Source: a virus
Length of the DNA stretch: 38,961 bases
Virus record (IMG/VR): IMGVR_UViG_3300031576_000166
Location: 1 to 38,961 of that record
Direction: 5' to 3' (one strand)
In this document: positions 2,811 through 38,961 of the stretch, piece after piece
Layout: each line of letters starts with the position of its first letter
How positions within the stretch are numbered: the stretch's first letter is position 1
Made by a program: the position numbers and the translations under genes
The notes under the pieces: generated by a model
What the model was told of the DNA's origin: nothing
Database searches by the model: none
The model's input: the letters and a program-made list of their open reading frames with translations, nothing else

Positions 2811-2816
2811 CAGGTT
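2801..2816 (+). promoter_or_regulatory. Shine-Dalgarno plus GTT start of gene 2814-3719
   Basis: GGAG at 2801-2804 is 9 bases from GTT at 2814-2816. The stop TAG at 2808-2810 is immediately upstream in the same frame, and there is no ATG, GTG or TTG between that stop and ATG 2919. Confidence 0.7.
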
Positions 2817-3719
2817 AGACAGAAACTTCAGCTTTTCATCTGGACATTTCTCGCCGTCCTCATTCCCTTTCACATCGAGGCGGCGGTCGTCACGATCAGT
2901 CATGCGGACTCCGTTGAGATGACCTATATCAATTCCGGAGCGACGACGACAAATTATTCGACTGATGACCGAATTCGTCTTGGCGAATGGAACAATTCCA
3001 ACCCGTTGCAATACGGTTTGGCGCGAGTGAAGTGCAACAATGCGACGGGAGGAATTCCGGCGGATTCTGTCAGGCTTCGAATACGGAACCTGCAAGTAAT
3101 TATGCACTCGACTGCCATAACTTGCACCCTGATTGATAGCTTCCTTATCAAGGTCTATCGAATAGACAGCCCTTGGGTTGAGGTGAACACGACCTGGAAC
3201 AACTTGGAGACATCGCGGCCGTGGGCCACTGCCGGCACAGGAGTTGGAACGGATGTGAATGGGCCGCGCAAAGCGTGGCACAATTCAACCCTTCGTGACA
3301 GTACCCGCCTTATCACCGCTTGGGCCGATAACGGTATTTGCGAAGGTGAGACAAAGTGGCTCAGCCAAGTAAATGCGCAAACCGCGCCCTTTGGAAGTCA
3401 GGATCTCTACTTCTACATCGACACGGCGATTGCGAATGTCTGGCTGACCGGCGGCGCAAATAACGGTATGCAGCTGCGGGTGTCGGCCATCGCCGATCAC
3501 GCAACACTAACTGACGGTTGCTTCATTGACCTCTATACCGACGATGCAACCGGCACGACGAATGATCCACAGCTTGAGGTCTACTATACGCCGAGCGGCG
3601 GCCTTCCCCAGCGGCGCCGCAAGCTGATAGAATATCAGATCGGACAAAGCTCAGCAGAATTGGACGATGCTCTGAGTGAACCCTATTCCCCCAAGGAAGA
3701 AGCCGCATGCGTATATTGA
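2814..3719 (+). CDS. Secreted DNRLRE-type domain protein, GTT start
   Basis: 301 residues if translation begins at GTT 2814. The first in-frame ATG is at 2919 and would delete the N-terminus, which is a clear signal peptide: Arg-Gln-Lys, then LFIWTFLAVLIPF, then a small-residue cleavage site near HIEA|A. The body has the pattern of a DNRLRE-type carbohydrate-binding domain: a run of arginine- and valine-rich strands (DSVRLRIRNLQV) and the characteristic WVEVNTTWNN segment followed by W. Such domains occur in secreted and cell-surface proteins. The gene is first in a row of four exported proteins. The role is probably on or outside the host envelope or in fibre assembly, which I infer. Confidence 0.75.
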   Translation, partial: VRQKLQLFIWTFLAVLIPFHIEAAVVTISHADSVEMTYINSGATTTNYSTDDRIRLGEWNNSNPLQYGLARVKCNNATGGIPADSVRLRIRNLQVIMHSTAITCTLIDSFLIKVYRIDSPWVEVNTTWNNLETSRPWATAGTGVGTDVNGPRKAWHNSTLRDSTRLITAWADNGICEGETKWLSQVNAQTAPFGSQDLYFYIDTAIANVWLTGGANNGMQLRVSAIADHATLTDGCFIDLYTDDATGTTNDPQLEVYYTPSGGLPQRRRKLIEYQIGQSSAELDDALSEPYSPKEEAACVY

Positions 3720-5671: not shown

Positions 5672-8154
5672 TACGACACCTACGCGCCCTTTGCCTCGCT
5701 CTCCTGCTTTGCGGGAGCGCGCACGCGCAAGTCGACTCCACCCCGTCGGTGCGCATGTTCTATATCGCCTACAACAATGACGGCAATCTTGATTCAATCG
5801 ATGGCCTTCTCTTCGGGGCTCGCGCTGAATTCATTGTCATGGACGAGATGACACTTCCCTACATCACGCCCGCCGTAAAGGGCATCAAGGCCTACAACCG
5901 TGGCACGAAACTGCTTCGCTACAATTCCTTTCAGGACAATTTCCACGGCGACTCGGCGGCTCCCAATGTAGCTGAGGACTGGTATCAGCACGCCCATTTG
6001 AAATACTTTCTTGGCGCCGATTCGAACAAGGCCTACTTCTACTATGACAGCGCTACGGCGCTTGATCGGGGATTCTATTCGGGTAGTCCAACGACACTTC
6101 CGGGGGCCGCGTTCAATTCTGACACTTCCCTTTCTCGTATGCCACCCGCCGGATTCAGCAACAACAATCGTCGCCGTCTCGCCAGCTACGCCACGGATAT
6201 TGTTCAGAAGGCCTATCTGAATTTCTATTTGTCGAACCTCAACCGCGTCTGGGTCACACTCTACAACGGCGCGGCCGTTTATTATGACGGCATCTGGCAT
6301 GACAATGTGGGGCCGGGTAACCAGATAGCCGCTCGGAGTGACAGTAATCTTACGGGCGGAAGGTGTTCACAGTTGAATCAATATCGACTCGGCGGCGCCA
6401 TCTACGACCCCGGATGGACACCGTACTGGATCAACAATCACCGCCCCTTTCTTACCCGGATGCTTGATTCGCTTCCTCTCTTTCCGTTCACCGTGCCCGG
6501 GAAGCGATATGTGGTCAACAACTACGCCGAGGTGCATGCGGATCGGTCGAGCACGACGCACCCATTCAAGTATTCCACGACATACAACGACAGCGATGTC
6601 TGCGACTTTGCCTTCTGGGAGCTTGATTTCAAGCTGACCAAGACCGCCGCTCCGAACCTCCTCTCCGCCGGATTGGCGGACGCGGGTACGAGTTGGGCGA
6701 CTACCCTCGCCGCTGGTTACAGTCCGATCCTATACTGGGAGCGTGACTCTATAGGGATGTTGCAAGGGTGTGGATCCTGGTGGTATCCACGGCAGACGGA
6801 TCCGCGTCCGTATGGATATGTCAATTGGCACTACTCCAACCTCGCGGTCTATTACATGATCCGCTCGCCGATAGATTACATAACCTGCAACTACGGCAAT
6901 TCAGTTAAGGCCAGCGCCTGGGGCGCGGGAGTTGGTGACACCTTCAACTGGATCCCCGCGTACGGGTATAACTTTGGAAACGATTCACAATTTTCAATAG
7001 CCGCGACGACGCGCCGTCCCGTCAAATTCGCCGCATCCGTCACCTGCTCCGACTGTGAAAATGGCACCCCCGTCGGAAAGGACCAGATCGGCCGCAACTG
7101 GATGGCCTTTGGCAAACACTTCACGAATGGCAACCTTACTCTCGTAAGGCCCGCGCACGAAGGCGAAGTTGACTGGTCGGTTGTCGCCGACGCTGGCAAT
7201 ACTTCTGTGACATTTAAGACAAATATGCCCGCGACGACAGACGGATACTACAACGGGAAGCTTCTTAGGTTCACATCGGGAAATCTTTCGGGTCAACAAC
7301 GACAGGTCACAAATTTCGTCGCGGCGACGAAGTTTATCACGGTCAGTTCGGCCTTTTCCGCGGCTCCCGCCGGCGCCACCAACAACATCCATATCTGGGG
7401 CGCATTCTCTCCTCCGATTCCCCTTGGTGGGAGTTTCAAGAAACTGAACCCAGACGGCACACTCGGACAAGTAATCACTCAGGATTCTCTTCGATCCGGA
7501 GAGGGTGGCATTTACATCACCACCGCGCCGGTCGATAACCCACCAGTCCTGAATTCAATTGGGGGCAAGTCCGTCTCGGAAGCGCAACTCTTGACATTTT
7601 CAATTTCGGCGACGGATGACTTATCCGTGCCGACGCTTGGAGCCACTGGCCTTCCCAGCGGGGCGCAGTTTGTGGATCATGGTGGTGGCTCGGGGACATT
7701 TACCTGGACTCCAAACTCCAGCCAGGCAGGCGTCTACAATGTCACCTTTACCTCCACGGACAATATCGCCCAGACAGATCAAGAGGTCGTGAATATCACG
7801 GTCACTGACTACAACCCTCCGACCGGTGGAGAAAAAGTCAGAGTTCGGATCGGCGCGCTGGATGAATCCCTGATGCGGGAATTTGGTTTCAGGTGGAACG
7901 GTTATGTGTGGGTTGATACAATCAGGGCCATTGACGCTTTCGATATCGAGGGCGGGGCGCTCGTCATTGAAGCCCATGAATGGACGGGACGGTTCGATGT
8001 TGACGCCAGTGGCGATGTGAATATCGGGGACCTCACGCTCTTTGTCGATCAACTGTTTCATGTCACACCGGCGGACATCAACCAATTTCAGATAGTCGAA
8101 TTAAACGAGCAAAACGAAGGAGCTCTTGGGTTAGAGTCATCTATCGATTACTAA
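5668..8154 (+). CDS. Secreted glycosidase-like protein with putative Ig domain and dockerin-like motif
   Basis: 828 residues from ATG 5668, which overlaps the previous stop as ATGA; GAGG lies 9 bases upstream. The signal peptide is MIRHLRALCLALLLCGSAHA. Residues about 25-460 resemble hypothetical glycosyl hydrolase-like families of the GHL15 type (aromatic-rich barrel segments such as FAFWELDFKL and SPILYWERDS), by recollection of pattern only. Around residues 520-580 there is a beta module also found in the next gene (FTSG, then ATKFITV, then SAAP). About residues 625-715 form a putative Ig domain ending in a tandem of WTP and VTF strands. Near residue 777 the loop DVDASGDVNIGD matches the calcium loop spacing of type I dockerins. 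Such modular secreted enzymes are unusual in a phage genome. Confidence 0.7.
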   Translation: MIRHLRALCLALLLCGSAHAQVDSTPSVRMFYIAYNNDGNLDSIDGLLFGARAEFIVMDEMTLPYITPAVKGIKAYNRGTKLLRYNSFQDNFHGDSAAPNVAEDWYQHAHLKYFLGADSNKAYFYYDSATALDRGFYSGSPTTLPGAAFNSDTSLSRMPPAGFSNNNRRRLASYATDIVQKAYLNFYLSNLNRVWVTLYNGAAVYYDGIWHDNVGPGNQIAARSDSNLTGGRCSQLNQYRLGGAIYDPGWTPYWINNHRPFLTRMLDSLPLFPFTVPGKRYVVNNYAEVHADRSSTTHPFKYSTTYNDSDVCDFAFWELDFKLTKTAAPNLLSAGLADAGTSWATTLAAGYSPILYWERDSIGMLQGCGSWWYPRQTDPRPYGYVNWHYSNLAVYYMIRSPIDYITCNYGNSVKASAWGAGVGDTFNWIPAYGYNFGNDSQFSIAATTRRPVKFAASVTCSDCENGTPVGKDQIGRNWMAFGKHFTNGNLTLVRPAHEGEVDWSVVADAGNTSVTFKTNMPATTDGYYNGKLLRFTSGNLSGQQRQVTNFVAATKFITVSSAFSAAPAGATNNIHIWGAFSPPIPLGGSFKKLNPDGTLGQVITQDSLRSGEGGIYITTAPVDNPPVLNSIGGKSVSEAQLLTFSISATDDLSVPTLGATGLPSGAQFVDHGGGSGTFTWTPNSSQAGVYNVTFTSTDNIAQTDQEVVNITVTDYNPPTGGEKVRVRIGALDESLMREFGFRWNGYVWVDTIRAIDAFDIEGGALVIEAHEWTGRFDVDASGDVNIGDLTLFVDQLFHVTPADINQFQIVELNEQNEGALGLESSIDY
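7996..8031 (+). other. Dockerin-like calcium-binding loop within the glycosidase-like protein
   Basis: The encoded loop has acidic or polar ligands at positions 1, 3, 5, 9 and 12 (D, D, S, N, D) followed by a hydrophobic helix, as in dockerin/EF-hand repeats. Only one copy is visible, whereas type I dockerins normally have two. Confidence 0.6.
8117..8132 (+). promoter_or_regulatory. Shine-Dalgarno plus GTT start of gene 8130-11423
   Basis: AAGGAG at 8117-8122 is 7 bases from GTT at 8130-8132. No ATG, GTG or TTG lies in this frame between the upstream stop and ATG 8157. Confidence 0.75.
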
Positions 8155-11100
8155 TCATGGTAGCGGGCGCGCTTTTCGCGTCCCCCTCAATCAATGCGTC
8201 CGGCATAGTAAATAATTCGGGGAGCACATCGGAGGACTCGGTCACTGTCGCCGTCCTCTCGCTTGACTCACTGGGTAACCCCGCGCTTTCCGATTCGTTT
8301 TTTGTCGCGGTGTTCTCTGGGGGCAAGACCAACGCGTCTGTATTCATAGACAGTGGCACCATAAGCACCTTGGTTGGTCTCGACAGCATTCGACTCTTCG
8401 GCGGAACGCTATACTACTATTCGCGCGCCGTAGCCGACATTGATGGGAACGGAGCGGCGGGTGAGTACAGCGGTGTTGTTATTGCGAAGAAGAATTCTCC
8501 GGTATTGCGCACGACCACTCGCTTCTCGTTCCAAATCGTTGGCAACAACTTTTCCAGCGGATATCTGGCGAGCCTTGACGCGGCCATCACTTCGAGAATG
8601 GCTACTTACACCCAACCGACAGGGTTTTTGGCGGCTACATTTCCAAGTGGAACGCTCGCGAACACGACGAATATCACCGCCGGAACCATGACAACTACGA
8701 CGAATCTGACTACCAATAATGACAAGACGAACTACACTCTATCGACCGCTGGTATCGATGCTCTTTTAGAGACGGACACCGTGACTATTGCCACAGCGAC
8801 ATCAGTGGGGCGGACACTGCAACGCGCCTACACTGAATCTTTGAAGCCAACGGTGGCGGGCCGGACGCTCGATGTAGCTACGACCGGTGAGGCGGGCGTT
8901 GACTTCTCAAATACTACGGGAGGGCTCGGCGCTGCTGAATTTGACAATGACGCTTTCACAGCCGCGAAATTTGCGGCCGATGTGGGGCTGGAATTTGCCG
9001 ACGCCATCTGGGACGAGGATGTGGGGACGCATTCGATTTTAGGGAGTTTCGGTAATCGCTTCAAGGCGCTGTCCTTGGTCGACGCCGAGGCGGCCGCCGG
9101 AACGCTGTCCTCAGATTCATTCACTACAACTCTCGTGAATGCGGTCAATGCTCACTATGTCGGAGCCACGCTGGTCTTCACCTCCGGCTCTAACTCTCAC
9201 CAATCACGACTCATAATTGCATACACTGGCGCCACCAAGAGCGTCAAGGTGGACCCGGCTTTTGAGGTGACTCCCTCGATCGGTGATGACTTCTCGATTG
9301 TGTTCAACCCCTTTTCTGCGCCGCTTTTCCAGGAGTATGTCACAAAAGGCGCATGGCTCATCGACAGTGGCATTACAGTTGACGGTCAGCGTTACGCTGA
9401 CACCCCGCGCGTCATCGGCTATGTTCACGCCCCGGAAAACATGCCATCCCTGGGCGAAGCGGGTGACTCAACCATGAAGCACATCATGGCGGCCGACACC
9501 GCAACCCACAATGATGCGGCTAACTCGTACGGGAAGATCTGGGCGGACCCGGGCTACATGGGATCAAACGCGGCCGCGATTTGGAGCCACGCAACCCGCA
9601 CGCTCACCGCATTCGATCCCGCGCTGTTGCCGGATTCGTCGCTCGGGGTGCGCCTTTTTCCCTATGCGACTATGACAAAATTCAGCCAGAACTGGGCCGA
9701 TCTGGACACGGCTGGATTCACGAAGCCAGGGAAAATGGGTGAGTCACAGAATCTCGCGGAGTTTTCTGACACATCGCAAGCGTCTCTGGCGGTTTGGAAT
9801 AAGAATCTTTCCGGTGCATCTCTTGTCGCCGGTAGCGCCGGCCGGCTGGTCCGGGGTCTTGCGCCCATAGATGGCGCCGCCATTACTGGGACACTTTCCA
9901 CAACTCAGTTCACCAGTAACTTTACGAATGCCAACACCGACTTTTACAAAGGCCAAGCGGTCACATTCATCAGCGGCTCTAACGCAGGCCAGACCCGCTT
10001 AGTCACCGCGTACAATGGCGCCACGAAGATGTTCACGGTCACACCAGCCCTGTCGGCCGCTCCGGCGAACAACGACCAGGTGGTCGTGGCAAGTGTCTCC
10101 AATATCGAGTCAGTCACCGGCTCGGTAGGTTCAGTCACCGGCAATGTCGGTGGCAATGTCGCTGGCTCGGTCGCTTCGGTGACTGGGTCGGTGGGGTCTG
10201 TCACGGGCAATGTCGGTGGAAATGTGGTCGGCTCGGTGGCGTCAGTCACCGGAGCGGTAGGGTCAGTCACCGGAGCGGTGGGGTCGGTCACCGGGTCAGT
10301 GACCGTTGGTACCAACAACGACAAGACGGGCTATGCCCTGAGCTCCGGTGACAAAAACACCCTCACCGATCTGATATGGGATGAAGCGCAAAGCGGCCAT
10401 GGCACCGTAGGGACATTTGGTTACAATGTCGACGCGCGCATTTCCACTGTCGGCACCGGTGGGTTTTCCACGACCGAAAGGGACTCGGTGCTGAAGGCCC
10501 TGCATGACGCCGCTATCCACACGAAGTCATGGGGTAGTTCATCGGTACGCGGACTCACCGCGGGAACCATCCTTGCGTCAACATTTGGGCTCGGGGCCAT
10601 CGATGGAAATGCCATCGGCCCTAACGCTTTCGGAGCCAGCGAGGCGGATGCGAGTTTGATTGACGAATTCTGGGACGAGGCCCAATCGGGTCACAGCACT
10701 GCTGGGACATTCGGTCTTTATCTCGACTCCCGCGTCTCTCTTGTTTCGGGTGGTGGGGGTGGCGGATCCTGTGGAACCGGAGCATACACGGTCAGCTGGC
10801 GCCTGCTGGACACATCCCAAATCCCCGACTTATCGGTGAGCGGCGTGAATATGTATGTGAACAATCTTGCGCAGAATGGAACGATCTATCAGGACGAAAT
10901 CGACCCCGCCACCGGACTTGCGCAATTCAACCTGAATGCTGGCACCTGGGTCATCTTCCACACCGACGCGCGCTACAAGACCAAGCTCGACACCTTCACC
11001 GTCGCCGGCGCATTGATAGACACGCAGATGACCTATCTCGATAAGGGGTCGCGCACGGTTGTCTATGGGACGCTCCAGGGGGCGGCGAATAACATCGCCT

Positions 11101-11423
11101 ACGCGCAGGCGCGCGTGCAACTTCTACCGATAGTCGCGGGCGAAGAGCTAAGAATCAACGACACGCTCTACGGGCAGACCTTGAGCTACGACACGACAGA
11201 TGCGCTCGGCCAGTTTTCGATCGCGCTTTACCGGAACGACCAGACGACAACTCCGTCAGCGGCGACGGATAGTTCGTTTTATCGGTGGTCATTCTACGAC
11301 CGCGCGAATAGACCAATCCGAGTCGGCGGGCAAGGGTATATTGACACCTACTTGCGGGCGGCGGATCAGGGCGGAGACGGCCGCGTGAAATTCAACTCCA
11401 TGCCACGGTTGAGTCGTCCATGA
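8130..11423 (+). CDS. Large exported fibre-like protein, GTT start
   Basis: 1,097 residues if started at GTT 8130, overlapping the previous gene by 25 bases. The GTT start gives a textbook signal peptide: VRVIYR, then LLIMVAGALFA, then SPSINA; ATG 8157 would leave only MVAGALFASPSINA without a positive n-region. The body has fibre-like features: repeated WDE..SGH..GTFG motifs (near residues 290, 750 and 848), two beta modules of the FTSG or FISG / ATK type encoded about 9090-9310 and 9880-10100, and a Gly/Ser/Val/Thr repeat region encoded about 10110-10310. A GGGGGS-type linker follows, then a beta-rich C-terminal domain with an YGTLQ-type strand. It is probably a fibre or adhesin exposed outside the cell or on the virion. 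Confidence 0.75.
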   Translation, partial: VRVIYRLLIMVAGALFASPSINASGIVNNSGSTSEDSVTVAVLSLDSLGNPALSDSFFVAVFSGGKTNASVFIDSGTISTLVGLDSIRLFGGTLYYYSRAVADIDGNGAAGEYSGVVIAKKNSPVLRTTTRFSFQIVGNNFSSGYLASLDAAITSRMATYTQPTGFLAATFPSGTLANTTNITAGTMTTTTNLTTNNDKTNYTLSTAGIDALLETDTVTIATATSVGRTLQRAYTESLKPTVAGRTLDVATTGEAGVDFSNTTGGLGAAEFDNDAFTAAKFAADVGLEFADAIWDEDVGTHSILGSFGNRFKALSLVDAEAAAGTLSSDSFTTTLVNAVNAHYVGATLVFTSGSNSHQSRLIIAYTGATKSVKVDPAFEVTPSIGDDFSIVFNPFSAPLFQEYVTKGAWLIDSGITVDGQRYADTPRVIGYVHAPENMPSLGEAGDSTMKHIMAADTATHNDAANSYGKIWADPGYMGSNAAAIWSHATRTLTAFDPALLPDSSLGVRLFPYATMTKFSQNWADLDTAGFTKPGKMGESQNLAEFSDTSQASLAVWNKNLSGASLVAGSAGRLVRGLAPIDGAAITGTLSTTQFTSNFTNANTDFYKGQAVTFISGSNAGQTRLVTAYNGATKMFTVTPALSAAPANNDQVVVASVSNIESVTGSVGSVTGNVGGNVAGSVASVTGSVGSVTGNVGGNVVGSVASVTGAVGSVTGAVGSVTGSVTVGTNNDKTGYALSSGDKNTLTDLIWDEAQSGHGTVGTFGYNVDARISTVGTGGFSTTERDSVLKALHDAAIHTKSWGSSSVRGLTAGTILASTFGLGAIDGNAIGPNAFGASEADASLIDEFWDEAQSGHSTAGTFGLYLDSRVSLVSGGGGGGSCGTGAYTVSWRLLDTSQIPDLSVSGVNMYVNNLAQNGTIYQDEIDPATGLAQFNLNAGTWVIFHTDARYKTKLDTFTVAGALIDTQMTYLDKGSRTVVYGTLQGAANNIAYAQARVQLLPIVAGEELRINDTLYGQTLSYDTTDALGQFSIALYRNDQTTTPSAATDSSFYRWSFYDRANRPIRVGGQGYIDTYLRAADQGGDGRVKFNSMPRLSRP
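10110..10310 (+). repeat. Degenerate repeat encoding a GSVGSVTGNVGGNV-like collagen-style region
   Basis: The DNA repeats units close to GTCACCGG, GGCAATGTCGG and GCTCGGT-GG, encoding alternating SVTG, SVGS and NVGG blocks. Repeats of this kind are common in phage fibre shafts and are prone to length variation. Confidence 0.8.
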
Positions 11424-11827: not shown

Positions 11828-11828
11828 G

Positions 11829-11843
11829 AAAGGAGTATTGGTT
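11829..11843 (+). promoter_or_regulatory. Shine-Dalgarno plus probable GTT start of the holin-like gene
   Basis: AAAGGAG at 11829-11835 is 5 bases from GTT 11841-11843. TTG at 11838-11840 is also in frame, but only 2 bases from the Shine-Dalgarno, too close for normal initiation. This is the most ambiguous of the five GTT sites. Confidence 0.5.
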
Positions 11844-12149
11844 GAACAACTTCCGTGGGACGCAATTGTCACAGCGACGCTGACTGCCCTGATCTATCCG
11901 ACAATTGAGAAGCTCAAGAAAAACTGGCCATGGATGAGCGATGAAGGGGTGTACGGCTCAGTCGTGAAGTTCGCGCTGGTGCTTGCCGGCGCGCTGATTG
12001 CGGTCTGGGGTTCCGAGGCCCTGGCGACCGGCTCCTTCGCGTTCAAGCAGGAGTATCTCACAAACGCGACACCGTACGCATTGGCGGCCATCGGCCTGAA
12101 AGTGCTTTTGAAGACCCGGGCGAAAGCCAGAGCCCAAAATGGAAACTGA
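11841..12149 (+). CDS. Holin-like membrane protein
   Basis: 102 residues from GTT 11841 (103 from TTG 11838). An amphipathic N-terminus precedes a hydrophobic segment (FALVLAGALIAVW, about residues 45-62) and a second, weaker one (YALAAIGLKVLL, about 80-92), ending in a basic tail. It follows the endolysin by 13 bases, the usual arrangement of a lysis cassette. Size and topology fit a holin of two membrane segments. I cannot assign a holin family. Confidence 0.6.
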   Translation, partial: VEQLPWDAIVTATLTALIYPTIEKLKKNWPWMSDEGVYGSVVKFALVLAGALIAVWGSEALATGSFAFKQEYLTNATPYALAAIGLKVLLKTRAKARAQNGN

Positions 12150-12180
12150 AGGACTATCACATCACAAAGGAGTGTTCCAC

Positions 12181-12734: not shown

Positions 12735-12768
12735 GGTAGTGGGTCAGTTTGACTCTTTAGTTTCTAAG
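12735..12768 (+). repeat. Left terminal inverted repeat of the transposon
   Basis: Reverse-complementary to 15761-15794 with one mismatch (T against C at base 31 from the end). The transposase stop codon lies inside it. Confidence 0.9.
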
Positions 12769-13583: not shown

Positions 13584-13653
13584 ACTGACCTAATATGCAT
13601 AACCGCTCACGCATTGTCAAGCAAAATCCACCCCTTGAAACAAATCAATTTTC

Positions 13654-14715: not shown

Positions 14716-15323
14716 GCCTGCTTGTCTTTCTTAGCTACACGATTTGAACGTACGACTGGCTTGAGTTCAATTGTATTACACGCGTCGCTGGAGAGTGTTG
14801 TAGGTACTTGCGCGGGAATTGACATCGACCATTCGATGTCTCTGCTTCGGGGACAAATAAGTCGCACATCCAAGATTGCTACTTGTAATTGATCAAGCAT
14901 GTAGCCCCCAATTAGTTTTGTAGGTGCATCTCCAATTCCCGGAATTCCAAGTTGAGCCATGAAGAGCTCTGATTGTCTTGTCTTGGAAAGGGAGAACTTG
15001 CCCCTTTCGTTCAGCTTCTTGAATCGCACTACTACCTTATTCTCGAAGATCACGGCGAGAAAGCCAGCCTTTTCTGAGAGATGCACATTGAGTATATCTT
15101 GAAACCGCCTCTTAGCGGCCTGAACAATGTGACAATACACGAAGTTGGCCCTGGCGATTGGGCTAAGAGGGGCTCGAAGCTCCGGGGCCTTTTCTCCGAA
15201 GGCCTCCCAAGCTCGCCACCCGTCCTTTATGCATTCGCCAATGCTGAGTAGGTGTGGGGCGAGAAACTCTCTGGTTTCGATCTCGCCGGGAATATTTCTT
15301 GGAGTGGTCTGTATATTCTTCAT
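14712..15323 (-). CDS. Partner protein of the XRE-ImmA regulator
   Basis: 203 residues from the ATG at 15323 (a TTG at 15332 is also in frame). It is soluble, mixed alpha/beta, with a C-terminal basic tail ending in KKDKQA, and has no motif I recognise. It is the first gene of a two-gene operon with the XRE-ImmA protein, overlapping it by 4 bases. An inverted repeat (15309-15339) and a promoter lie over its start, so the operon is probably autoregulated. A toxin or a substrate of the ImmA peptidase is possible. Confidence 0.7.
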   Translation of the reverse strand: MKNIQTTPRNIPGEIETREFLAPHLLSIGECIKDGWRAWEAFGEKAPELRAPLSPIARANFVYCHIVQAAKRRFQDILNVHLSEKAGFLAVIFENKVVVRFKKLNERGKFSLSKTRQSELFMAQLGIPGIGDAPTKLIGGYMLDQLQVAILDVRLICPRSRDIEWSMSIPAQVPTTLSSDACNTIELKPVVRSNRVAKKDKQA

Positions 15324-15358
15324 AGAAAACAATATACAGGGGTTTTAAGAAAAAGCAA
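15309..15358 (-). promoter_or_regulatory. Promoter and operator of the XRE-ImmA operon
   Basis: CTGTATATT (15309-15317) and AATATACAG (15331-15339) are a perfect 9-bp inverted repeat with 13 bases between, spanning the start codon at 15321-15323. On the minus strand, TTGCTT is followed after 16 bases by TATATT, which lies inside the upstream arm of the repeat. Binding of the XRE protein here would block its own promoter. The predicted transcript start is at or a few bases before the ATG. Confidence 0.6.
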
Positions 15359-15379
15359 GCGAAATTATTCCACAGATTA

Positions 15380-15739
15380 TTATTCCAAATCGTTCTTTCC
15401 CCAACGTGCCTCGGCGGCCTTCTTCGCCGCCTCTGAGCGCTCCTTCTTGGTCATCGACTTGGCGCGGGCCTTTCCGCCTTTCAGACCACCAAGACGGCCA
15501 AGGGAAACGGCGGCTGGGTTCTTGCCAGATGTGTCCGGCGGGGCTTCGGGTATGGCTCCGCCTTCATTATCCCAATTGTTGACTGTGGTCTCTGGCGGCT
15601 TTTCCGACTGATCTGGAACTGGATTAGTCGCCTGCTCGACTATTGAGTGAGCCAGTTCGCTAATATCGAGTCGTTTCTTGGGCTTCTTCTTTTTCACGCC
15701 CCAATCTAACCGCTTAAGCATGATTGACCAAGCGCCCAT
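15380..15739 (-). CDS. Small Lys/Ala/Gly-rich protein, possibly nucleic-acid-binding
   Basis: 119 residues (113 from the internal ATG at 15721). The N-terminus has a KKKKPKK stretch; the centre is Pro/Glu-rich and likely disordered; the C-terminus contains a RLGGLKGGKARAKSM stretch followed by KAAEARWGK. This C-terminal motif is widespread in small bacterial proteins often next to mobile elements; its function is unknown to me. The composition suggests binding to nucleic acid. It sits between the transposon end and the XRE-ImmA operon. Confidence 0.65.
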   Translation of the reverse strand: MGAWSIMLKRLDWGVKKKKPKKRLDISELAHSIVEQATNPVPDQSEKPPETTVNNWDNEGGAIPEAPPDTSGKNPAAVSLGRLGGLKGGKARAKSMTKKERSEAAKKAAEARWGKNDLE

Positions 15740-15743
15740 ATTT

Positions 15744-15760
15744 CAAACTGACCCACTACC
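15744..15760 (+). repeat. Partial copy of the transposon terminal repeat
   Basis: These 17 bases are identical to 15778-15794, the outermost part of the right inverted repeat, in direct orientation and 34 bases apart. They suggest an earlier transposon end or one formed by incomplete transposition. Confidence 0.8.
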
Positions 15761-15794
15761 CTTGGAAACTAAAGAGTCAAACTGACCCACTACC
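15761..15794 (-). repeat. Right terminal inverted repeat of the transposon
   Basis: Matches 12735-12768 in reverse complement at 33 of 34 positions. Confidence 0.9.
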
Positions 15795-22271: not shown

Positions 22272-22964
22272 ATGAAAATCCTAAATCGATTTAACGGAAC
22301 GGTCATCTTTGAGGATGACGCGGAAACAATGGCCAAGACGGTCAGGGCCGCTCGCAAAGTTGGAGCATCCCTGTCACGCGCCGACTTGTCAGCCGCCGAC
22401 TTGTCACGCGCCAACTTGTCACGCGCCAACTTGTCACGCGCCAACTTGTCACGCGCCAACTTGTCAGACGCCAACTTGTCATGCGCCAACTTGTCATGCG
22501 CCAACTTGTCACGCGCCGACTTGTCACGCGCCGACTTGTCAGCCGCCGACTTGTCAGCCGCCGACTTGTCACGCGCCGACTTGTCACGCGCCAACTTGTC
22601 ACGCGCCAACTTGTCAGACGCCAACTTGTCACGCGCCAACTTGTCACGCGCCAACTTGTCAGACGCGAAGAAAGATTTACTTTCGGTATTGTCACAGTTT
22701 CCGAATGAAGTCCCCGCCTTGAGGGCGGCCATTGTCCAAGGGACAATCAATGGGGCGGTGTACGAAGGCGAATGTTGCTGCCTCAAGGGCACTATAGCCA
22801 AAGCGAAAGGTGTGCACTATACAGAGTGCACTCCATGCAGTGGAGACCCTGCGGAGCGACTCTTTTTAGCCATTCAAGAGGGGGATACCCCAGAAACTAA
22901 TCCCGTGTCGAAAATTGCGCTTGAATGGCTTGACGAGTGGACGCAATCCAAGTTGGGGAGGTGA
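22272..22964 (+). CDS. Pentapeptide-repeat protein
   Basis: 230 residues. About 20 pentapeptides of the form A(D/N)LSx occupy residues 34-133 and should form a right-handed quadrilateral beta helix. The C-terminal 95 residues hold a Cys cluster (ECCCLKG, CTPC) and the segment EGDTPETNP. Pentapeptide proteins include DNA mimics that inhibit gyrase, but phage copies like this one with a C-terminal domain have no known function. The neighbouring genes are short and accessory. Confidence 0.85.
22371..22670 (+). repeat. Twenty tandem 15-bp repeats encoding the pentapeptide array
   Basis: Each unit is close to TTGTCACGCGCCAAC. Variation occurs almost only at the third and fifth codons, and the TTGTCA part is unchanged in all units, so the array has expanded recently or is homogenised. 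Confidence 0.92.
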
Positions 22965-23163: not shown

Positions 23164-23349
23164 ATGACCGTCACAACACAACAAACCCGCGTCCCGCTTA
23201 GCCCTGAGATGTTGGAAAACTATTCGATAGAGATGAGCGCAGTAGATTACGCTATAGATGAGTATCTAAGTAAGGCCATTCGAACGCGCGCTGATGAATT
23301 CTGGCAGGATCTACTAAAAGCATCAAATCAGAAGGGAGCACACGGTTAG
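23164..23349 (+). CDS. Small accessory protein
   Basis: 61 residues from ATG 23164, chosen because AAGGGAG (23151-23157) is 6 bases upstream; earlier ATGs at 23134 and 23158 are less well placed. The product is acidic and helical, and ends with a TAG immediately before the next gene. No family recognised. Confidence 0.55.
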   Translation: MTVTTQQTRVPLSPEMLENYSIEMSAVDYAIDEYLSKAIRTRADEFWQDLLKASNQKGAHG

Positions 23350-23350
23350 A

Positions 23351-23629
23351 ATGTCATACACCAAACACACAGCCACCGTCCCTGTGCGCATGGGGGACTT
23401 TCTGCATATTGAAGACCTTGCTGAGCGCAAACGGACTTATCATGCCGAGTACGCCAGGGTGCGCCGAGAAATGTTAGCGACTCGCGCGATCCAAATTCGC
23501 CAAAACTTCGCCGTGAATCGTGCGCCAACTCCGCCGCAAAGCATCGCCGCACCCGCGGTTACGAAAGTCGCGACTACGATGGCGACGGGGTTTTCCGTAA
23601 AGGCGCCAACTCCGTTCACGAAAGGATGA
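23351..23629 (+). CDS. Small basic protein ahead of the terminase
   Basis: 92 residues from ATG 23351, with AAGGGAG 17 bases and a weaker GG-type site closer. The N-terminal half is helical and charged (AERKRTYHAEYARVRREML); the C-terminal half is Ala/Pro/Thr-rich. It ends 4 bases before the GTT start of the small terminase. Function unknown. Confidence 0.55.
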   Translation: MSYTKHTATVPVRMGDFLHIEDLAERKRTYHAEYARVRREMLATRAIQIRQNFAVNRAPTPPQSIAAPAVTKVATTMATGFSVKAPTPFTKG

Positions 23630-23636
23630 ATCGGTT
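23622..23636 (+). promoter_or_regulatory. Shine-Dalgarno plus GTT start of terS
   Basis: AAGGA at 23622-23626 is 7 bases from GTT 23634-23636, which opens the terS frame. The first conventional start in this frame is TTG at 23724, 90 bases inside and without a Shine-Dalgarno. Confidence 0.75.
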
Positions 23637-24089
23637 CCGAAGGGAAAGAAGCCCAAAGGCCGCGACCGGCCCAATATCCCCACTCGTAGGTTTACATCTC
23701 TTACTGAAGACGAAGCCCCTGGCTTGTCAAGGGTTCGGCGTAAGTTGTTGAGCTATGAGCTGGTATACGCCGATCAGAATCTTTCAGTCACGGATTTGTG
23801 TCAACTCGCCGGAGTGAGCCGTCAGGTGCATTGGGAATGCCACCGCGATCCCAAATATCGGGCGGCCCTTAGTGAGCGCCTGCGCCTGATGTTCGGACGC
23901 GTTTCTCCGTTCCTTGTGTGCCGGTACATCCACATGGCGACAGACGGTGACCGGCGCGCGACCGAACGCATTCTCGAAAATATGGGGCTACTGAAGTCCC
24001 CGGCCATTACCCTCGGACAACCAGATGACCAAAGTAACGCAGACCTTGAGGCGACCGCCAAAGCTCTCCAAGACCTCGGCCAAACGTAA
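23634..24089 (+). CDS. terS: Small terminase subunit, GTT start
   Basis: 151 residues from GTT 23634. The N-terminus is very basic (PKGKKPKGRDRPN), followed by a helix-turn-helix (LSVTDLCQLAGVSRQVHWECHRD) as expected for a terminase subunit that recognises DNA, and a C-terminal region (RRATERILENMGLL) typical of phage small terminases. A TTG start at 23724 would remove the basic tail and begin right at the DNA-binding helices. It overlaps terL by 65 bases, the usual terS-terL order. Confidence 0.75.
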   Translation, partial: VPKGKKPKGRDRPNIPTRRFTSLTEDEAPGLSRVRRKLLSYELVYADQNLSVTDLCQLAGVSRQVHWECHRDPKYRAALSERLRLMFGRVSPFLVCRYIHMATDGDRRATERILENMGLLKSPAITLGQPDDQSNADLEATAKALQDLGQT

Positions 24090-25745: not shown

Positions 25746-27935
25746 GTGGGACTCGTAGATCGCTTGCGCTCAAATCTTCCGAAGTGGCTTCGCCCGGGAA
25801 TCGTACCAGAAAAGATTCCTACTTCTTCCCCTTCCGTTAAAGAAGACCGCACTGCATCGCTTCGCGCTCGTGATTACGCGGACGACGCGCCTCCACAACT
25901 ATTCGATATTACCGCCGACGCGCGGACGGAACGCGTCGATGCAAACATCGCCATCATCACAAGGATTGTGACCGGCGCCGTGGCGCACTTACCCATAGAT
26001 GTCAGCCGTGTTGTCAATGACGGGGGAAAACTTTCGTACGAGGAAGACAACTCACATCCGGCCGCTGAGCTTTTACGGATCCCGAATTTCTATCACATGA
26101 CCTCAGAGGTGATATCGGACATCGTCCAGTCCTTGGTTCTCTGTGGGAATTCTTACACTGCCATCGAGAAGAAAGGCGGACAAACGATCCTGGAACTGTG
26201 GCCGCTTGAGCCGTCGAAGGTTGAGATAGCTCTGGATCGGGAAAGTGGATTGCCCCTTGGATACCACTATGAACGATTTGGGTTCGGCAAGCCACGCATC
26301 TCGTACGCCCTCGATGAGCTCTTACATATTCGACTTTGGAATGTGAACGACCGTTGGTATGGCCGCTCTGGAGTACAGTCCGTCCACTCAAAGATCATGT
26401 TGAATTGGTATGTCGATAGGTATAACAACGGGTTCTTTCGGAACGGGGCCGGTGTCACAAAGGCCCTCTTTCCCAGTGAATCCATGAGCGCTGAAGAGCG
26501 TGAGATAACCGAGAAGGCGCTACGCGGGCGGAGTTCCCCTGAGAATTTTGGAAAGATTGTTGTCATGCCGGTCGGCGGGGACATCAAGAACATCGGCAGT
26601 GAACAGAAAGACCTGTCATTCCTTGAACTGCTCCAAAATAATCGAGAACAAATTCTTGCTGTCTTTGGCATACCGCCCTTTCTCGCTGGCGTCATGGAGT
26701 TCGCCAATTACGCGAACGCGCTTGTGCAAGAGCAGTCATTCTGGCGACACACGATTAAGCCACTCTGTGAGATTATTTCACAGTCGATGACGCGGCAGAT
26801 CATTTGGCAACACTTCGACCGGGAGCATGTGTTCCGATTTGACTTCTCGGGAGTTGACGCACTACGCCCCGACGAGCTGGCGCGCGCGCAGACCGACGCG
26901 ATACTTGTCAGGTCCGGAATTGTGACAATCAATGAAGCTCGGCGGAGCCGCAACATGGATCCCGTCGACTGGGGCGATGAACCGATACTACAGCTACTCA
27001 ACCCCATTGCTCCTGGAGCGGCCACCGATGGGACACAGGAAGTCGATCCAAATAAAGAGGCGAAGTCCGACCTCTTTGTCGGGCCGCCGTTCGTGCGAAG
27101 GTCTGCGCCACAAACGCCAAGGGCTATTAAGTGGAAGGCGTTCGATCAGCGTGTCAGGAAAGAAGAGATCCGCTTTTCGCGCATAATAGCCGAATACTTT
27201 CAGGGTCAAGGCGCCCGTGTAATAGAACGCCTGGACAAGTTCACAGCGAACGGGAAATTCATGGCCGCCATAATGATCGCCATGAAGGATGCGCCGGATA
27301 GCCCCGATCCGATTTTCCCTGTCGGAGATGAGGATGTGATTCTCGAACGGTCCGTTATACCAGCTTTTCGCTCCACCATTGGACGCGCGGGCACAGACGC
27401 GATAACGGATATCGGGGTGAGCGCGTCATTCAATGTGAACAATCCCTCGGTCTCCGGCGCCGTGTCACAGTTCTTTAACCGCATCCGGAACATCAACGAC
27501 ACCTCGTACGAGATCATCAAAGGCATCCTACGCCAAGCGAATGACGAGGGCTGGTCTATTGAACGCATCCAGAAGGAATTGCGGCGCAATTTTCTGGAGT
27601 TCTCGCGTGAGCGGGCAGTGCGCATAGCGCGCACCGAAATGACGGGTGTTGTGAACCGTGGGACGATTATCGCCTATGAACAAATTGGCGTCGAAACAAA
27701 GGAATGGCTTGCCACGCAGGACGAAGTAACGCGCGACTCGCACGCGGCCGCTGACGGAGAGGTAGTGCCAATCGATCAACCATTTATCCGCACAGGTTAT
27801 CCGATGGATGCGCCCGGCGATCCCACTGCACCGCCGGGGCAGGTCATAAATTGTCGCTGTGCGGTCACAGCAGGAGAGGAGAAAAGGTTCCCTATAAGAC
27901 ATCCGGAACAGATCTTGAGCTTAAGCACAAACTAA
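25746..27935 (+). CDS. Portal protein fused to a MuF-like head protein
   Basis: 729 residues from GTG 25746; an in-frame TAA at 25737 excludes an earlier start. Residues about 1-430 match the HK97-type portal pattern (ISDIVQSLVLCGNSYTAI, then LLHIRLWN, then FGIPPFLAGV). The C-terminal 240 residues carry a MuF-like domain: ERAVRIARTEMTGVVNRGT and the ending INCRCAVT. MuF proteins normally are a separate gene after the portal; fusion into one chain is unusual and would fix the MuF domain at 12 copies per vertex. Confidence 0.85.
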   Translation: MGLVDRLRSNLPKWLRPGIVPEKIPTSSPSVKEDRTASLRARDYADDAPPQLFDITADARTERVDANIAIITRIVTGAVAHLPIDVSRVVNDGGKLSYEEDNSHPAAELLRIPNFYHMTSEVISDIVQSLVLCGNSYTAIEKKGGQTILELWPLEPSKVEIALDRESGLPLGYHYERFGFGKPRISYALDELLHIRLWNVNDRWYGRSGVQSVHSKIMLNWYVDRYNNGFFRNGAGVTKALFPSESMSAEEREITEKALRGRSSPENFGKIVVMPVGGDIKNIGSEQKDLSFLELLQNNREQILAVFGIPPFLAGVMEFANYANALVQEQSFWRHTIKPLCEIISQSMTRQIIWQHFDREHVFRFDFSGVDALRPDELARAQTDAILVRSGIVTINEARRSRNMDPVDWGDEPILQLLNPIAPGAATDGTQEVDPNKEAKSDLFVGPPFVRRSAPQTPRAIKWKAFDQRVRKEEIRFSRIIAEYFQGQGARVIERLDKFTANGKFMAAIMIAMKDAPDSPDPIFPVGDEDVILERSVIPAFRSTIGRAGTDAITDIGVSASFNVNNPSVSGAVSQFFNRIRNINDTSYEIIKGILRQANDEGWSIERIQKELRRNFLEFSRERAVRIARTEMTGVVNRGTIIAYEQIGVETKEWLATQDEVTRDSHAAADGEVVPIDQPFIRTGYPMDAPGDPTAPPGQVINCRCAVTAGEEKRFPIRHPEQILSLSTN
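27872..27889 (+). promoter_or_regulatory. Shine-Dalgarno plus GTT start of the protease-capsid gene
   Basis: A doubled site AGGAGAGGAG (27872-27881) is followed after 5 bases by GTT 27887-27889. The only other in-frame start is TTG 27851, 36 bases upstream. Confidence 0.7.
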
Positions 27936-30022
27936 GCCAGCCGTTTGAATTCAAGTCGCTCACGGATGAGTCAGATGGCTCGTTGATAGTTGAGGGCTGG
28001 GCGTCGACACGGGCAATTGACTCCTACAATGAAATCGTCGAACCAGAGTCCTTCCGAAGCTCACTGAATGAGTATCTCGAGAAGGCCATTGTGCTCTTCA
28101 TGCACAGGTTCTTCGATGCGCCAATTGGCAAGACCCTGTCGGCGGAGATCCGCGAAGATGGCCTCTGGGTTCGGGTAAAGATACTCGCGACGGACCTCGG
28201 TAAAGACATCATCCTGCTCATCAAAGAGGGGGTGATTCGCTCGTTTTCCATCGGCTATCAGGAGCGCAAGGTTGAGGAGAATTCGGAAACCAAGACACGC
28301 CGAATTCTCGACCTGCGGTTAATGGAAATCTCGGTCGTGAATCTGGGCGCGAATTTCGGGGCGGTATTCTCAGAAGCGAAATCCAAAGGACTGTCATTAA
28401 AACATCTACAACCCTCTGAGTTCTCAGAGACATCACGGAAAGGGAATCTGGTTGACCACGAAGTAAGAGACGCAATCAAGCGCACCGAAGAGACGGTCGG
28501 AGGGTTTCGTAGCTCTCTGGAAACTGTCTCAGGCGATGTGCAGAGGTTAGGGAAGAATCTGAACGATCAGGGAGCCCTGCTTCGGCAGGTTCAGGAAAAG
28601 GCAGACGCGTTGAGCAAGGGCGCTATCACGCCCGCTGAGTTCAAGGCCTTCACGGAGAAGGTCGGCGCAGTCATTCTTAAGCTCGAAGAGAGCATAAATT
28701 CCGCAAAGGGCGCGGAGAATGTCCGCAAGGTGCGCTACGCCGTGAAGGATTGGCGCGGGATGGCGGATATTCCGTGGCTCCGAAAAGACGACGGTTCACC
28801 GCTCTCAGCGATGGAGCAAAAGGCCTACCGGCTTTTCCAAGCTCCCGTCAATTTCGAAGACAGCGAAGATGGCCACCTGCTAAAGATGACGCGTGACTTG
28901 CACGATGTCGTCGCGGTCGTCGACGCGTACATGCGCGGGAAAAAGACACCGGGCTACGCTATTCAGCGCCTGAAGTCCTTTCAGGATTTGAAAAAGCTGG
29001 TGGGATACTTCGACAGCGAATTCGCCGAAAAGGCCATGTTCTCAACGGGCGTGGGGCTTGGCGACGAATGGGTGCCGATATTTCAATCGGGCAATCTCAT
29101 CGAGTTTCTCCGGCTCGAACCGGGGTTGTTCAATCGTATCCCGGCCTTCGACATGCCGTCACAACCATATGACTGGCCTCTGTTGATTGGGGGCGCGACT
29201 ACATATCGCGGCTTTGAAGCGGCCGTGAATAATCCGACGCAAGCCACGGCTTCTAACCTAAGCACAGCTAAGGTAACCTTGTCCGCGGAGCCTTTTATCA
29301 CGCGCATCCCGTGTTCGCCGGACATGGTTGAAGATTCGGTGGTTTCAATTTTTGAGGAGATTCGCAAGGAGATCGTTCGTTCGCAGGCCGAGGCCTATGA
29401 TGCGTCGATCCTGAATGGTGACACGACCGCGACACATCGTGACACCGGCCGGTCGTACACAGCGGTAAATGTGGAATCGGCTTTCATGGGCTTGCGCTAT
29501 CTGGCCATCGACACCGCCGGGTCGTCGTTTGACACGGCCTCGACAACCGCCGGAGTAGGCGACGCCACCACGGCCTTCGTTGCGAAGGATGTGCGTTATC
29601 TGCGGAAGCTGATGGGTGTCGCAGGGGCGGATCCAAGTAAGGTCTTGTATGTGTGCAATCTCGACACATGGTTCCAGGCGCTGAACTTCAGCGAGGTCAC
29701 CAAGGCCAACGAGTTCGGCAATCCGTCAACCTGGCTAAGCGGTGTGCTCCCGGGCTTGGACGGTGTGGAAATCTTCATCACCTCCAAGATTTCCAACACG
29801 CTGAACGGTTCTGGTGTGGATGCTGGAGGAACGAAGACGGGTATTCTCGCGCTCCGGCCGAGTTCGTTCAAGTGGGCGTCACGGCGCGGGCTGACCGTTG
29901 AGTTCGAGAAGGATCTTCTCGCCCAGCAGTGGAATTTCGTGGCCACGAGCCGGAAGCAACTCAAGAAGTTGGCCGCGGCGGCAGACAGAGTTGTCGCCTA
30001 CGGATTCAACATCACGCCATAA
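27887..30022 (+). CDS. Prohead protease fused to HK97-type major capsid protein, GTT start
   Basis: 711 residues from GTT 27887, giving the N-terminus VPYKTSG, similar to the MPYKT-like start of HK97-type proteases. Residues about 12-165 are the serine protease: SDGSLIVEGWAST, the catalytic histidine in FMHRF and the catalytic serine in RSFSIGY. A helical, charged region follows (about 180-290) and may act as scaffold or delta domain. The rest is the capsid protein, with the LRLEPGLFNRIPA and PCSPDMVED segments and a C-terminal LLAQQWNFVA. One chain for protease, scaffold and capsid would require self-cleavage during maturation. Confidence 0.85.
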   Translation, partial: VPYKTSGTDLELKHKLSQPFEFKSLTDESDGSLIVEGWASTRAIDSYNEIVEPESFRSSLNEYLEKAIVLFMHRFFDAPIGKTLSAEIREDGLWVRVKILATDLGKDIILLIKEGVIRSFSIGYQERKVEENSETKTRRILDLRLMEISVVNLGANFGAVFSEAKSKGLSLKHLQPSEFSETSRKGNLVDHEVRDAIKRTEETVGGFRSSLETVSGDVQRLGKNLNDQGALLRQVQEKADALSKGAITPAEFKAFTEKVGAVILKLEESINSAKGAENVRKVRYAVKDWRGMADIPWLRKDDGSPLSAMEQKAYRLFQAPVNFEDSEDGHLLKMTRDLHDVVAVVDAYMRGKKTPGYAIQRLKSFQDLKKLVGYFDSEFAEKAMFSTGVGLGDEWVPIFQSGNLIEFLRLEPGLFNRIPAFDMPSQPYDWPLLIGGATTYRGFEAAVNNPTQATASNLSTAKVTLSAEPFITRIPCSPDMVEDSVVSIFEEIRKEIVRSQAEAYDASILNGDTTATHRDTGRSYTAVNVESAFMGLRYLAIDTAGSSFDTASTTAGVGDATTAFVAKDVRYLRKLMGVAGADPSKVLYVCNLDTWFQALNFSEVTKANEFGNPSTWLSGVLPGLDGVEIFITSKISNTLNGSGVDAGGTKTGILALRPSSFKWASRRGLTVEFEKDLLAQQWNFVATSRKQLKKLAAAADRVVAYGFNITP

Positions 30023-30056: not shown

Positions 30057-30128
30057 TGCGGGATGGAGCAGTGGTAGCTCATCGGGATAACCTCCCGAAG
30101 GTCGTCGGTTCGATTCCGACTCCCGCTT
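30057..30128 (+). tRNA. Initiator-like tRNA with anticodon AAC (reads GUU)
   Basis: A full cloverleaf folds: acceptor G2-A7 (30058-30063) with T66-C71 (30121-30126), D stem GAGC/GCTC (30066-30069, 30077-30080), anticodon stem TCGGG/CCCGA (30082-30086, 30094-30098), loop ATAACCT with T33 at 30088, T stem GTCGG/CCGAC and loop TTCGATT (30109-30115). The anticodon is AAC (30089-30091). Bacterial initiator features are present: A11:T24, three G:C pairs 29-31:39-41, G2:C71-C3:G70-G4:C69, and no pair at 1:72 (T1, T72). By hand about 58 of 72 positions agree with E. coli tRNA-fMet as I remember it. No CCA is encoded. C37 and T73 are unusual. ValRS may charge it, given A35 and C36. Confidence 0.88.
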
Positions 30129-37324: not shown

Positions 37325-38961
37325 TGCTCACTGTGCCGACACAATTTGCCGAACACGCGGGAAGGATTGGCTCCCGGCGGCATTACATCCTGAGCATGGT
37401 CGATTCTGGAGTGACCTATTTGTTCTCAGATTGCGAAATGCACCTAACGGACGGACATGTCTACAATGTCGGCTTGCAAATAGGCGAGCTGTCGTCGGCG
37501 TGTGACTTTATGCAGGGTGGTTCCACGGTCTCTGAGGCCAGCGTGGCGTTCGCGAATATCGAATTATATATAGACACTTCTAATGTTCGCGTTCGACCGT
37601 CCGATGTGATGGGAGCGCTCACGGCCGGAACGGCAAAAATCTATCTTGCGGCGGGGTCGTCGATAGCTTCACTCTCGGACTGCCTGCAAGTGTACAGCGG
37701 AAAAATGGTCGGCGAATTGGCCTACAATAAGGAGCAATCCTCCCTCTCGATTGCGGATGACGGATTCGCCGACCAAAAGAAACTTCCCCAAACCGATATC
37801 TCCGCCTCGTTTACTGGCGCGGTCTCGGCGATTCATAGTCGTAAGCAACCTCTTGTCTATGGCACATTCGTACGCGACGACTATTTGGCGGGAGGCCTCG
37901 CCGTCGCTGAAGAGATCGAGAACGACAAGTTTCTGATCGCGGGACATGCGCTCAAGTCGGCGAAGAAGATATGGCTCTATCATGACGCGTTGGGTGACTT
38001 CGTCGAGGTCATCCCTTGGTCGACGACACTGACCGCAAATATCTCCGCCGCGGCGACGCTACTCCCCGTGTCCAGCTATCTCAACATGTGGAAGAAGAAC
38101 GAATTCATCCGCATCAACCCCGGAGGCGGCACAGAGGAAATGCGCCAGATTCAGAAGACCGGCAACTCCTCGGTCTATGTCACGGCCGGCGTCACCAGCG
38201 CACACAACTCAACGGAGAAAGTTGAGCGTTGGCCTTTCAATGTGGATGAGAGTGGGAAGGGAGTTTGTTGGCTCCTGCGCGACAAGGTGCAGTTCGACAC
38301 GACGGACAGTAAGGACGCCTACGCCATCGGTGAGGCGATCCGCTGTTATGCCTACATTCATCCGGACGAACTTTCACAGTCGGCCATTTATAATAAATCC
38401 GACCTGCGCCGCACATACATCACCGTCACTGCGAATTCCGGACAGGCGGTCGTCGCTGTCAATGACACGACGGGGTTTGTCGCTGGGGATACGGTGACAC
38501 TTGATCCGGAGGGCGTGGGCGGCGGAACTGAGGACAAAACAATTCTCTCCGTCGACTCGCTCACTCAACTCACCATGACGGCGAACCTCACCTTCACCCA
38601 TACCTTAGCGCAGGGAGACCCTATCGTCCCGAAGTTCGCGACGCAGGCGATGAATGTGTCCAGCTGGGCGCAATGCACGGATCAGCGTGGCGATACCTAT
38701 GCATCGGTCAAGTCCGGCCACGAGTCGGCCAGTACCGGCTATGGGAATCTGAATGTTGGCTTTCCGGATCTGGGTTCTGGTCGTGGCAATATCGCCAATG
38801 AAATTGGTTTCATCGAAGATTACGACCTACAGATCAATTGGGCCGCCGCTCCCGCGGTGACACTGTCGGTGACACAGGCGACACTCCAAACCGGAGCGAC
38901 AAGAAAAGAGTCCGCCCAAACTCGTAAGGCCACAAAGAGCTTCACCGCGACGGGAGCGCTG
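37324..38961 (+). CDS. Tail tip/baseplate protein, 5' part (continues at base 1)
   Basis: An open frame of 546 codons runs off the window end; it starts with ATG 37324 after CAGGAG. The N-terminal 220 residues (HAGRIGSRRHYILSMVDSG, then GKMVGELAYNKEQSSLSI) resemble phage baseplate proteins that bind the distal tail; a strand-rich part and the first beta module follow before the end. The last 641 bases match 1-641, so the gene continues there and the product is about 753 residues, or about 1,047 if the frame at 1202-1336 is repaired. Confidence 0.75.
   Translation, partial: MLTVPTQFAEHAGRIGSRRHYILSMVDSGVTYLFSDCEMHLTDGHVYNVGLQIGELSSACDFMQGGSTVSEASVAFANIELYIDTSNVRVRPSDVMGALTAGTAKIYLAAGSSIASLSDCLQVYSGKMVGELAYNKEQSSLSIADDGFADQKKLPQTDISASFTGAVSAIHSRKQPLVYGTFVRDDYLAGGLAVAEEIENDKFLIAGHALKSAKKIWLYHDALGDFVEVIPWSTTLTANISAAATLLPVSSYLNMWKKNEFIRINPGGGTEEMRQIQKTGNSSVYVTAGVTSAHNSTEKVERWPFNVDESGKGVCWLLRDKVQFDTTDSKDAYAIGEAIRCYAYIHPDELSQSAIYNKSDLRRTYITVTANSGQAVVAVNDTTGFVAGDTVTLDPEGVGGGTEDKTILSVDSLTQLTMTANLTFTHTLAQGDPIVPKFATQAMNVSSWAQCTDQRGDTYASVKSGHESASTGYGNLNVGFPDLGSGRGNIANEIGFIEDYDLQINWAAAPAVTLSVTQATLQTGATRKESAQTRKATKSFTATGAL
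38321..38961 (+). repeat. Terminal overlap with 1-641
   Basis: Second copy of the same tail-gene stretch; see 1-641. The true genome length is therefore about 38,320 bases. Confidence 0.9.

Follow-up and report, generated by a model that had tools for sequence, protein, structure and literature searches.

The window, by which we mean the whole stretch of DNA that was analysed (38,961 nucleotides; positions 1-38,961 of IMG/VR record IMGVR_UViG_3300031576_000166), carries a single tRNA gene according to ARAGORN, which labelled it Val(aac) and placed it exactly at 30057-30128 on the + strand. The gene sits in a 136-nt gap between the stop of a prohead protease/major capsid fusion gene (30022) and the ATG of the next gene (30159, with its own Shine-Dalgarno (SD) motif), and it begins 34 nt downstream of the end of the protease-capsid gene. 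A preliminary description, made from sequence alone, had claimed a tRNA with an AAC anticodon at this position and had proposed tRNAscan-SE/Infernal scoring as a check; the claim held in ARAGORN, in Rfam (52.3 bits for RF00005, the tRNA family, with a gathering score of 29) and in folding (the folding energy of 30057-30128 beats that of 198 out of 200 shuffles; z -2.75).

The rest of the window contains several features of separate interest. Positions 12735-15794 are an insertion of ~3 kb with 34-nt inverted repeats (97%), i.e., a transposon within the phage genome; among the genes it carries are one for a DDE transposase (12744-13583) and one for an HTH-IrrE peptidase. Positions 1-641 and 38321-38961 form an imperfect terminal repeat, the first 300 nt of which are 98% identical, and the contig ends therefore overlap but derive from slightly different copies. 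A pentapeptide-repeat (ADLSRANLS) protein with 15-nt repeats lies at 22312-22726.

Reading the tRNA gene base by base, we found the hallmarks of an initiator in the acceptor, the D-arm and the anticodon stem. Specifically, the acceptor has a T1.T72 mismatch, i.e., no Watson-Crick pair at 1:72 (a mismatch type also present in CAT initiators, e.g., locus L001), and keeps the formylation pairs G2:C71, C3:G70 and G4:C69; the D-arm has A11:U24; and the anticodon stem (TCGGG/CCCGA) has three G:C pairs, G29-31:C39-41. Initiator criteria were not met in the anticodon loop, whose seven bases (A32 T33 A34 A35 C36 C37 T38; AUAACCU) include AAC and C37 rather than CAU and A37, nor at position 73, which is T rather than A. 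CCA is not encoded, and GCA stands downstream at that place. Two cautions apply: A32:U38 pairing could close the anticodon loop, and charging by ValRS may be impaired when the discriminator is not A73, as here (T73). Bacterial tRNAs very rarely have AAC as the anticodon. All the structural features given in the preliminary description, and the caveats it had attached to them (C37, A32/T38 and T73), proved correct on this reading.

Placement among elongator tRNA-Val had been named in that description as an outcome that would refute it. We checked this by comparing sequences rather than with an initiator-specific covariance model, masking the anticodon loop and drawing on the tRNAs of the fetched loci, and found that the tRNA groups with initiators: its mean identity was 81% to 99 distinct initiator-like tRNAs (the best, at 91%, being a CAT initiator), 59% to 188 other tRNAs and no more than 69% to ordinary Val tRNAs, i.e., elongators. 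The features expected of an elongator tRNA-Val (pyrimidine 11:purine 24, a paired 1:72, purine 37) are likewise absent. By sequence and by all structural hallmarks except those of the anticodon region and position 73, the gene at 30057-30128 (+) thus encodes a tRNA of the initiator type in which the anticodon loop has been rewritten. As a separate observation, this loop looks as if two blocks of the fMet loop had been exchanged (CTC|ATAAC -> ATAAC|CTC), for which we found no mechanism. We also considered mimicry of the anti-Shine-Dalgarno sequence, given the likeness of GGATAACCTCC to the 16S tail GGATCACCTCC, and dropped it, as nothing that we tested supported it.

If such a tRNA were to initiate, the phage would be expected to have GTT start codons, and we identified six candidates in the window, all on the + strand. 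The protease-capsid gene (27887..30022) has a proposed GTT start at 27887, preceded by the SD motif AGGAGAGGAG (27872-27881) with 5 nt spacing. The N-terminal region of this ORF contains neither ATG nor GTG. Conserved S78 protease homology (phrog_80) starts as early as residue 17 of the protein read from GTT, which is upstream of an in-frame TTG (27983); the sole remaining canonical option, TTG 27851, has no more than a weak AGGT. The capsid gene is likely to be among the GUU-started genes, its start being inferred from sequence. A putative terminase small subunit gene (23634..24089; protein MPKGKKPKG...; weak match to phrog_2538 TerS, E=0.042) has its proposed GTT 5 nt after the upstream stop, behind AAGGA at 23622-23626, and its first canonical start is TTG 23724. 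A holin-like gene (11841..12149; protein MEQLPWDAIV...; weak match to phrog_2359 holin, E=0.019) has AAGGAG at 11830-11835 with 5 nt spacing, while the adjacent TTG 11838 would leave just 2 nt. The weakest candidate is a small gene (23345..23629) with GGAG at 6 nt spacing, where a possible GTT start competes with ATG 23351 (12 nt spacing).

The remaining two candidates are genes for exported/tail proteins. A large one (8130..11423) has AAGGAG at 8117-8122 and would begin with MRVIYRLLIMVAGALFASPSINAS; the other (2814..3719), encoding a DNRLRE-domain protein, has GGAG at 2801-2804, and the GTT proposed as its start lies 4 nt past the upstream stop; its product would begin with MRQKLQLFIWTFLAVLIPFHIEA, which precedes the DNRLRE domain. 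The first canonical start of the latter is ATG 2919, 35 codons on, which would remove a signal-peptide-like N-terminus, and this is the only gene in the window that is obligatorily non-canonical by coding potential. The GTT starts at 2814 and 8130 restore signal-peptide-like N-termini in both proteins (charge +2; 12-residue hydropathy 2.40 and 2.42). These resemble the N-termini of three exported proteins of the same phage that start with ATG (hydropathy 2.2-2.35), whereas 19 other genes reach at most 1.92. Separately, we note that five genes of the tail/lysis region (2814-12651) encode proteins with signal-peptide-like N-termini, which is unusual for tail proteins.

All six candidate GTT starts have G at position -1, which could pair with C37 of the tRNA. 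Some caution is required, as the sample is small (five or six genes) and a canonical alternative lies close by in two or three of them (TTG 27851, TTG 11838, ATG 23351). ATG starts also occur alongside GTT or GTA starts in late regions.

We assessed the GTT starts statistically by examining gene junctions, i.e., in-frame codons within 60 nt of the upstream gene's stop, and their SD spacing. Using a hand-curated gene list for the window, we found enrichment only for ATG (13/40, P=1.8e-4) and GTT (7/21, P=0.005), with GGTT at 6/9. In a second test, based on an automatic gene caller blind to start codons, GTT ranked first among 61 codons, and GGTT (4/4) ranked first among 230 tetramers. As a control, we applied the same pipeline to 74 viral loci (801 kb) that have a CAT initiator. 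Neither GTT (7.9%) nor GTA (8.8%) was enriched at SD-placed starts in these loci, where the base rate was 10%, GGTT reached 11/111 and TGTA 2/84, and ATG reached 34%. Against this control background, the GGTT counts in the window had P=1e-4 (start-agnostic caller) and P=6e-5 (curated list). A genome-wide SD scan of the window without gene context, which has little power, gave P=0.07 for GTT and P=0.0025 for GGTT.

Altered-anticodon initiator-type tRNAs are very rare in the collections we scanned, i.e., viral contigs and 85k genomes. With an initial pattern, we recovered at least 120 viral loci that have an initiator D-arm, and almost all of these were CAT. A strict scan (position 34 not C) found two cases in 2.9 million viral contigs (L039 and L121) and five bacterial cases in the 85k genomes, and a relaxed scan of the viral contigs added one further real tRNA (L145); all three viral cases have the anticodon TAC. 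The window's own record may be missing from such scans. A search for relatives of the window phage (large terminase and capsid fragment in viral contigs; tblastn in phages) returned distant matches only, and an anticodon-arm scan of the viral contigs returned no relative.

One of these viruses provides an independent case. L039 (genome G001; IMG/VR 3300036864_000384; 39.4 kb, 66% GC) carries one tRNA, which is of the initiator type with anticodon TAC and A37, and the predicted start is therefore GUA with U at -1. We found that GTA ranked first among 60 codons (12/17, P=1.8e-7) and that TGTA (9/9, P=2e-8) ranked first among 210 tetramers. In eleven genes a GTA lies at SD spacing, always preceded by T (-1) and with a purine at +4; these starts are at 16090 (portal), 20052 (protease), 21381 (capsid-size protein, phrog_13692), 23510, 24176, 25283, 26881 (tape measure), 28796, 31094, 31569 and 37320. 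Homology begins at residue 74 of the portal, residue 5 of the protease and residue 30 of the capsid-size protein, whereas the first in-frame canonical starts are at residues 94, 19 and 40, respectively. Homology in these three proteins thus precedes any canonical start, meaning that a non-canonical start is obligatory. More generally, 10 out of 37 genes had coding signal upstream of any canonical start (9 of these 10 with an SD-positioned GTA), compared with 1-2 of ~50 genes in two control phages with CAT initiators. The early genes of G001 have ATG or GTG starts. A at -2, found in 8 of the 11 sites, is not explained by codon-anticodon pairing. We also observed that 8 of the 11 sites read ATGTAR, i.e., an ATG followed by an immediate stop in another frame, which could possibly be a decoy that aborts starts by the host initiator. 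The alternative that these genes start at this ATG and undergo a -1 frameshift was rejected, as it predicts neither GTA nor the TAC anticodon.

The predicted-codon pattern is not common to every altered-anticodon phage. GTA starts were absent from G002 (L121; TAC, G37; 0/13), and in G008 (L145; TAC, A37) GTA ranked 16, although little SD use leaves that test with little power. The predicted codon ranked first in two of the four altered-anticodon viral records, and the chance of this calculated from ranks is ~6 x (1/61)^2 = 0.002 for codons and ~1e-4 for tetramers (the smaller P values were not used). A fecal phage scaffold (MT835577.1, position 2871; L162/L166) has an initiator-like CAA tRNA that would read UUG, with no enrichment of TTG starts. 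Among cultured isolates, PaMx74 and the others checked have the anticodon CAT; in the Pseudomonas and Stenotrophomonas phages PaMx74 and QDWS359 (L156, L160), we observed a CAT initiator-like tRNA directly after terL. The chromosome of Kibdelosporangium philippinense (L125/L144) has an initiator-like tRNA with TAC and T37, together with two other initiator-pattern matches; the TAC tRNA (L144) gave no usable start-codon signal. A recombinase-like ORF is among the genes near it. At L124 and L126 (two MAGs), L122 and L123, we also saw initiator-like tRNAs on chromosomes, with TAT or AAT as the anticodon. In the MAGs G003, G005 and G007, which may be incomplete, nothing else matched the initiator D-arm pattern.

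The preliminary description had further proposed that the tRNA is a natural initiator-like tRNA that might initiate at GUU. This is supported by the SD-spaced, in-frame GTT at several gene starts of the window, by the top rank of GTT and by the GTA parallel in the TAC phage, although initiation remains an inference without expression data. Loss of the initiator features in homologues would have counted against the proposal, and the other altered-anticodon viral tRNAs retain them. C37, raised as a caveat, now fits the G at -1 of every GTT candidate, while T73 is still unexplained.

What is shown, then, is an initiator-type tRNA body, matching statistics of codon and -1 base in two unrelated phages, and genes without a usable canonical start. 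We consider it likely that these phages use initiator tRNAs with rewritten anticodons to serve private valine start codons on late genes, with expression, charging, formylation, initiation and timing all inferred. In this model, the window tRNA would derive from a bacterial tRNA-fMet whose anticodon loop was rewritten to AUAACCU, and it would be transcribed together with the late (capsid) operon. The three G:C pairs would admit it to the P site, and the 1:72 mismatch would allow formylation and bar it from elongation. AAC, extended by C37, would then pair with (G)GUU on late mRNAs that have an SD motif and lack a well-placed AUG, GUG or UUG, making GUU a private start for structural, packaging and lysis genes while AUG is kept elsewhere. 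Charging with valine is probable, by inference, because MetRS reads CAU; by analogy with engineered initiators, valine charging and formylation would give proteins that start with (f)Val. The G001 system would represent the same design arisen independently, its UAC with A37 reading (U)GUA. The likely benefit would be that late proteins depend on an initiator made by the phage, which could serve to lock their timing, to insulate them from leaky expression or to escape tRNA-fMet nucleases. A bolder reading is that this is a natural reassignment of the start codon, in which AAC and UAC initiators make a four-base contact (anticodon plus position 37), late genes start at (G)GUU or (U)GUA with an amino acid other than methionine, and the initiation channel is insulated from host tRNA-fMet; we consider this reading fairly likely.

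The alternative that survives best, though we regard it as unlikely, is that the tRNA is a relic or drifting copy of a host initiator, or a non-decoding tRNA-like element for RNA processing in the capsid operon, and that the GTT sites are coincidental. The atypical C37, T73, A32:U38 and missing CCA speak for it, as do the small window sample and the rarity of AAC in bacteria. Against it, no stem is disrupted and every P-site determinant is retained, GTT and GGTT are at the top among SD-positioned codons and tetramers, and the GTA starts of the independent TAC phage reach far higher significance.

Three further explanations appear very unlikely. Firstly, the loop may have been altered solely to escape host anticodon nucleases, with start-codon usage incidental: VapC toxins cleave initiator tRNA (PMC4105405) and protective loop changes occur in phage tRNAs (PMC10264068), but this predicts neither the top rank of GTT in the window and GTA in G001 nor the matching -1 base; nuclease escape nevertheless remains possible as the evolutionary reason for the system. 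Secondly, the host CAU initiator may read genuine GTT and GTA starts at low efficiency, which would throttle these genes without any role for the tRNA, in line with rare natural non-AUG starts such as the sigR GTC under IF3 control (PMC5472188); however, the codon fits the anticodon in both phages even though their anticodons differ, the -1 base fits position 37, and capsid and portal genes are unexpected targets for throttling. Finally, the idea of an ordinary elongator tRNA-Val(AAC) with which the phage supplements codon supply has the ARAGORN label in its favour and is contradicted by the A11:U24, T1.T72 and three G:C pairs of an initiator, by a pyrimidine at 37 and T73, which are not Val-like, and by the lower identity to Val elongators than to initiators.

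To return to private start codons, some viruses probably use GUU or GUA in this way, as inferred from sequence without expression data. In the textbook view, a single initiator tRNA begins protein synthesis at AUG, with tolerance for near-cognate codons. If true, our reading would provide a natural counterpart to the orthogonal initiation systems of synthetic biologists and give phage tRNAs a precise role, with a candidate lever for late-gene control and a possible escape from tRNA-fMet nucleases. Gene finders limited to ATG, GTG and TTG truncate or misplace such genes. In the full-text literature searched, we found no natural non-CAU initiator tRNA paired with cognate starts, although few preprints were covered and most subscription papers were outside its scope, so absence is unproven.

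Compared with known systems, the window tRNA has in common with bacterial tRNA-fMet the acceptor mismatch, A11:U24, the three G:C pairs and up to 91% identity outside the loop, and differs from it in having AAC, C37 and T73 instead of CAU, A37 and A73. Engineered initiators with changed anticodons, including UAC/GUA, initiate in vitro (PMC13232202), and the step is therefore physically plausible; they resemble the window tRNA in joining an initiator body to a new anticodon that reads a cognate non-AUG start, whereas the window system is natural, is encoded by a phage, is paired with late genes that are themselves natural, and apparently reaches beyond the anticodon to position 37 and base -1. 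Nuclease-evading phage tRNAs (PMC10264068) also have an anticodon loop that differs from that of the host tRNA; in the window tRNA, by contrast, the anticodon itself is changed and the phage start codons match it. The GTC start of Streptomyces sigR (PMC5472188) is likewise a natural non-canonical start at a valine codon, but, unlike the window system, it has no dedicated tRNA, concerns a single gene and is repressed by IF3. Lastly, phage suppressor tRNAs and stop-codon recoding change the meaning of codons for late genes; suppressor tRNAs recode elongation at stops, whereas the window tRNA would recode initiation at a start codon.
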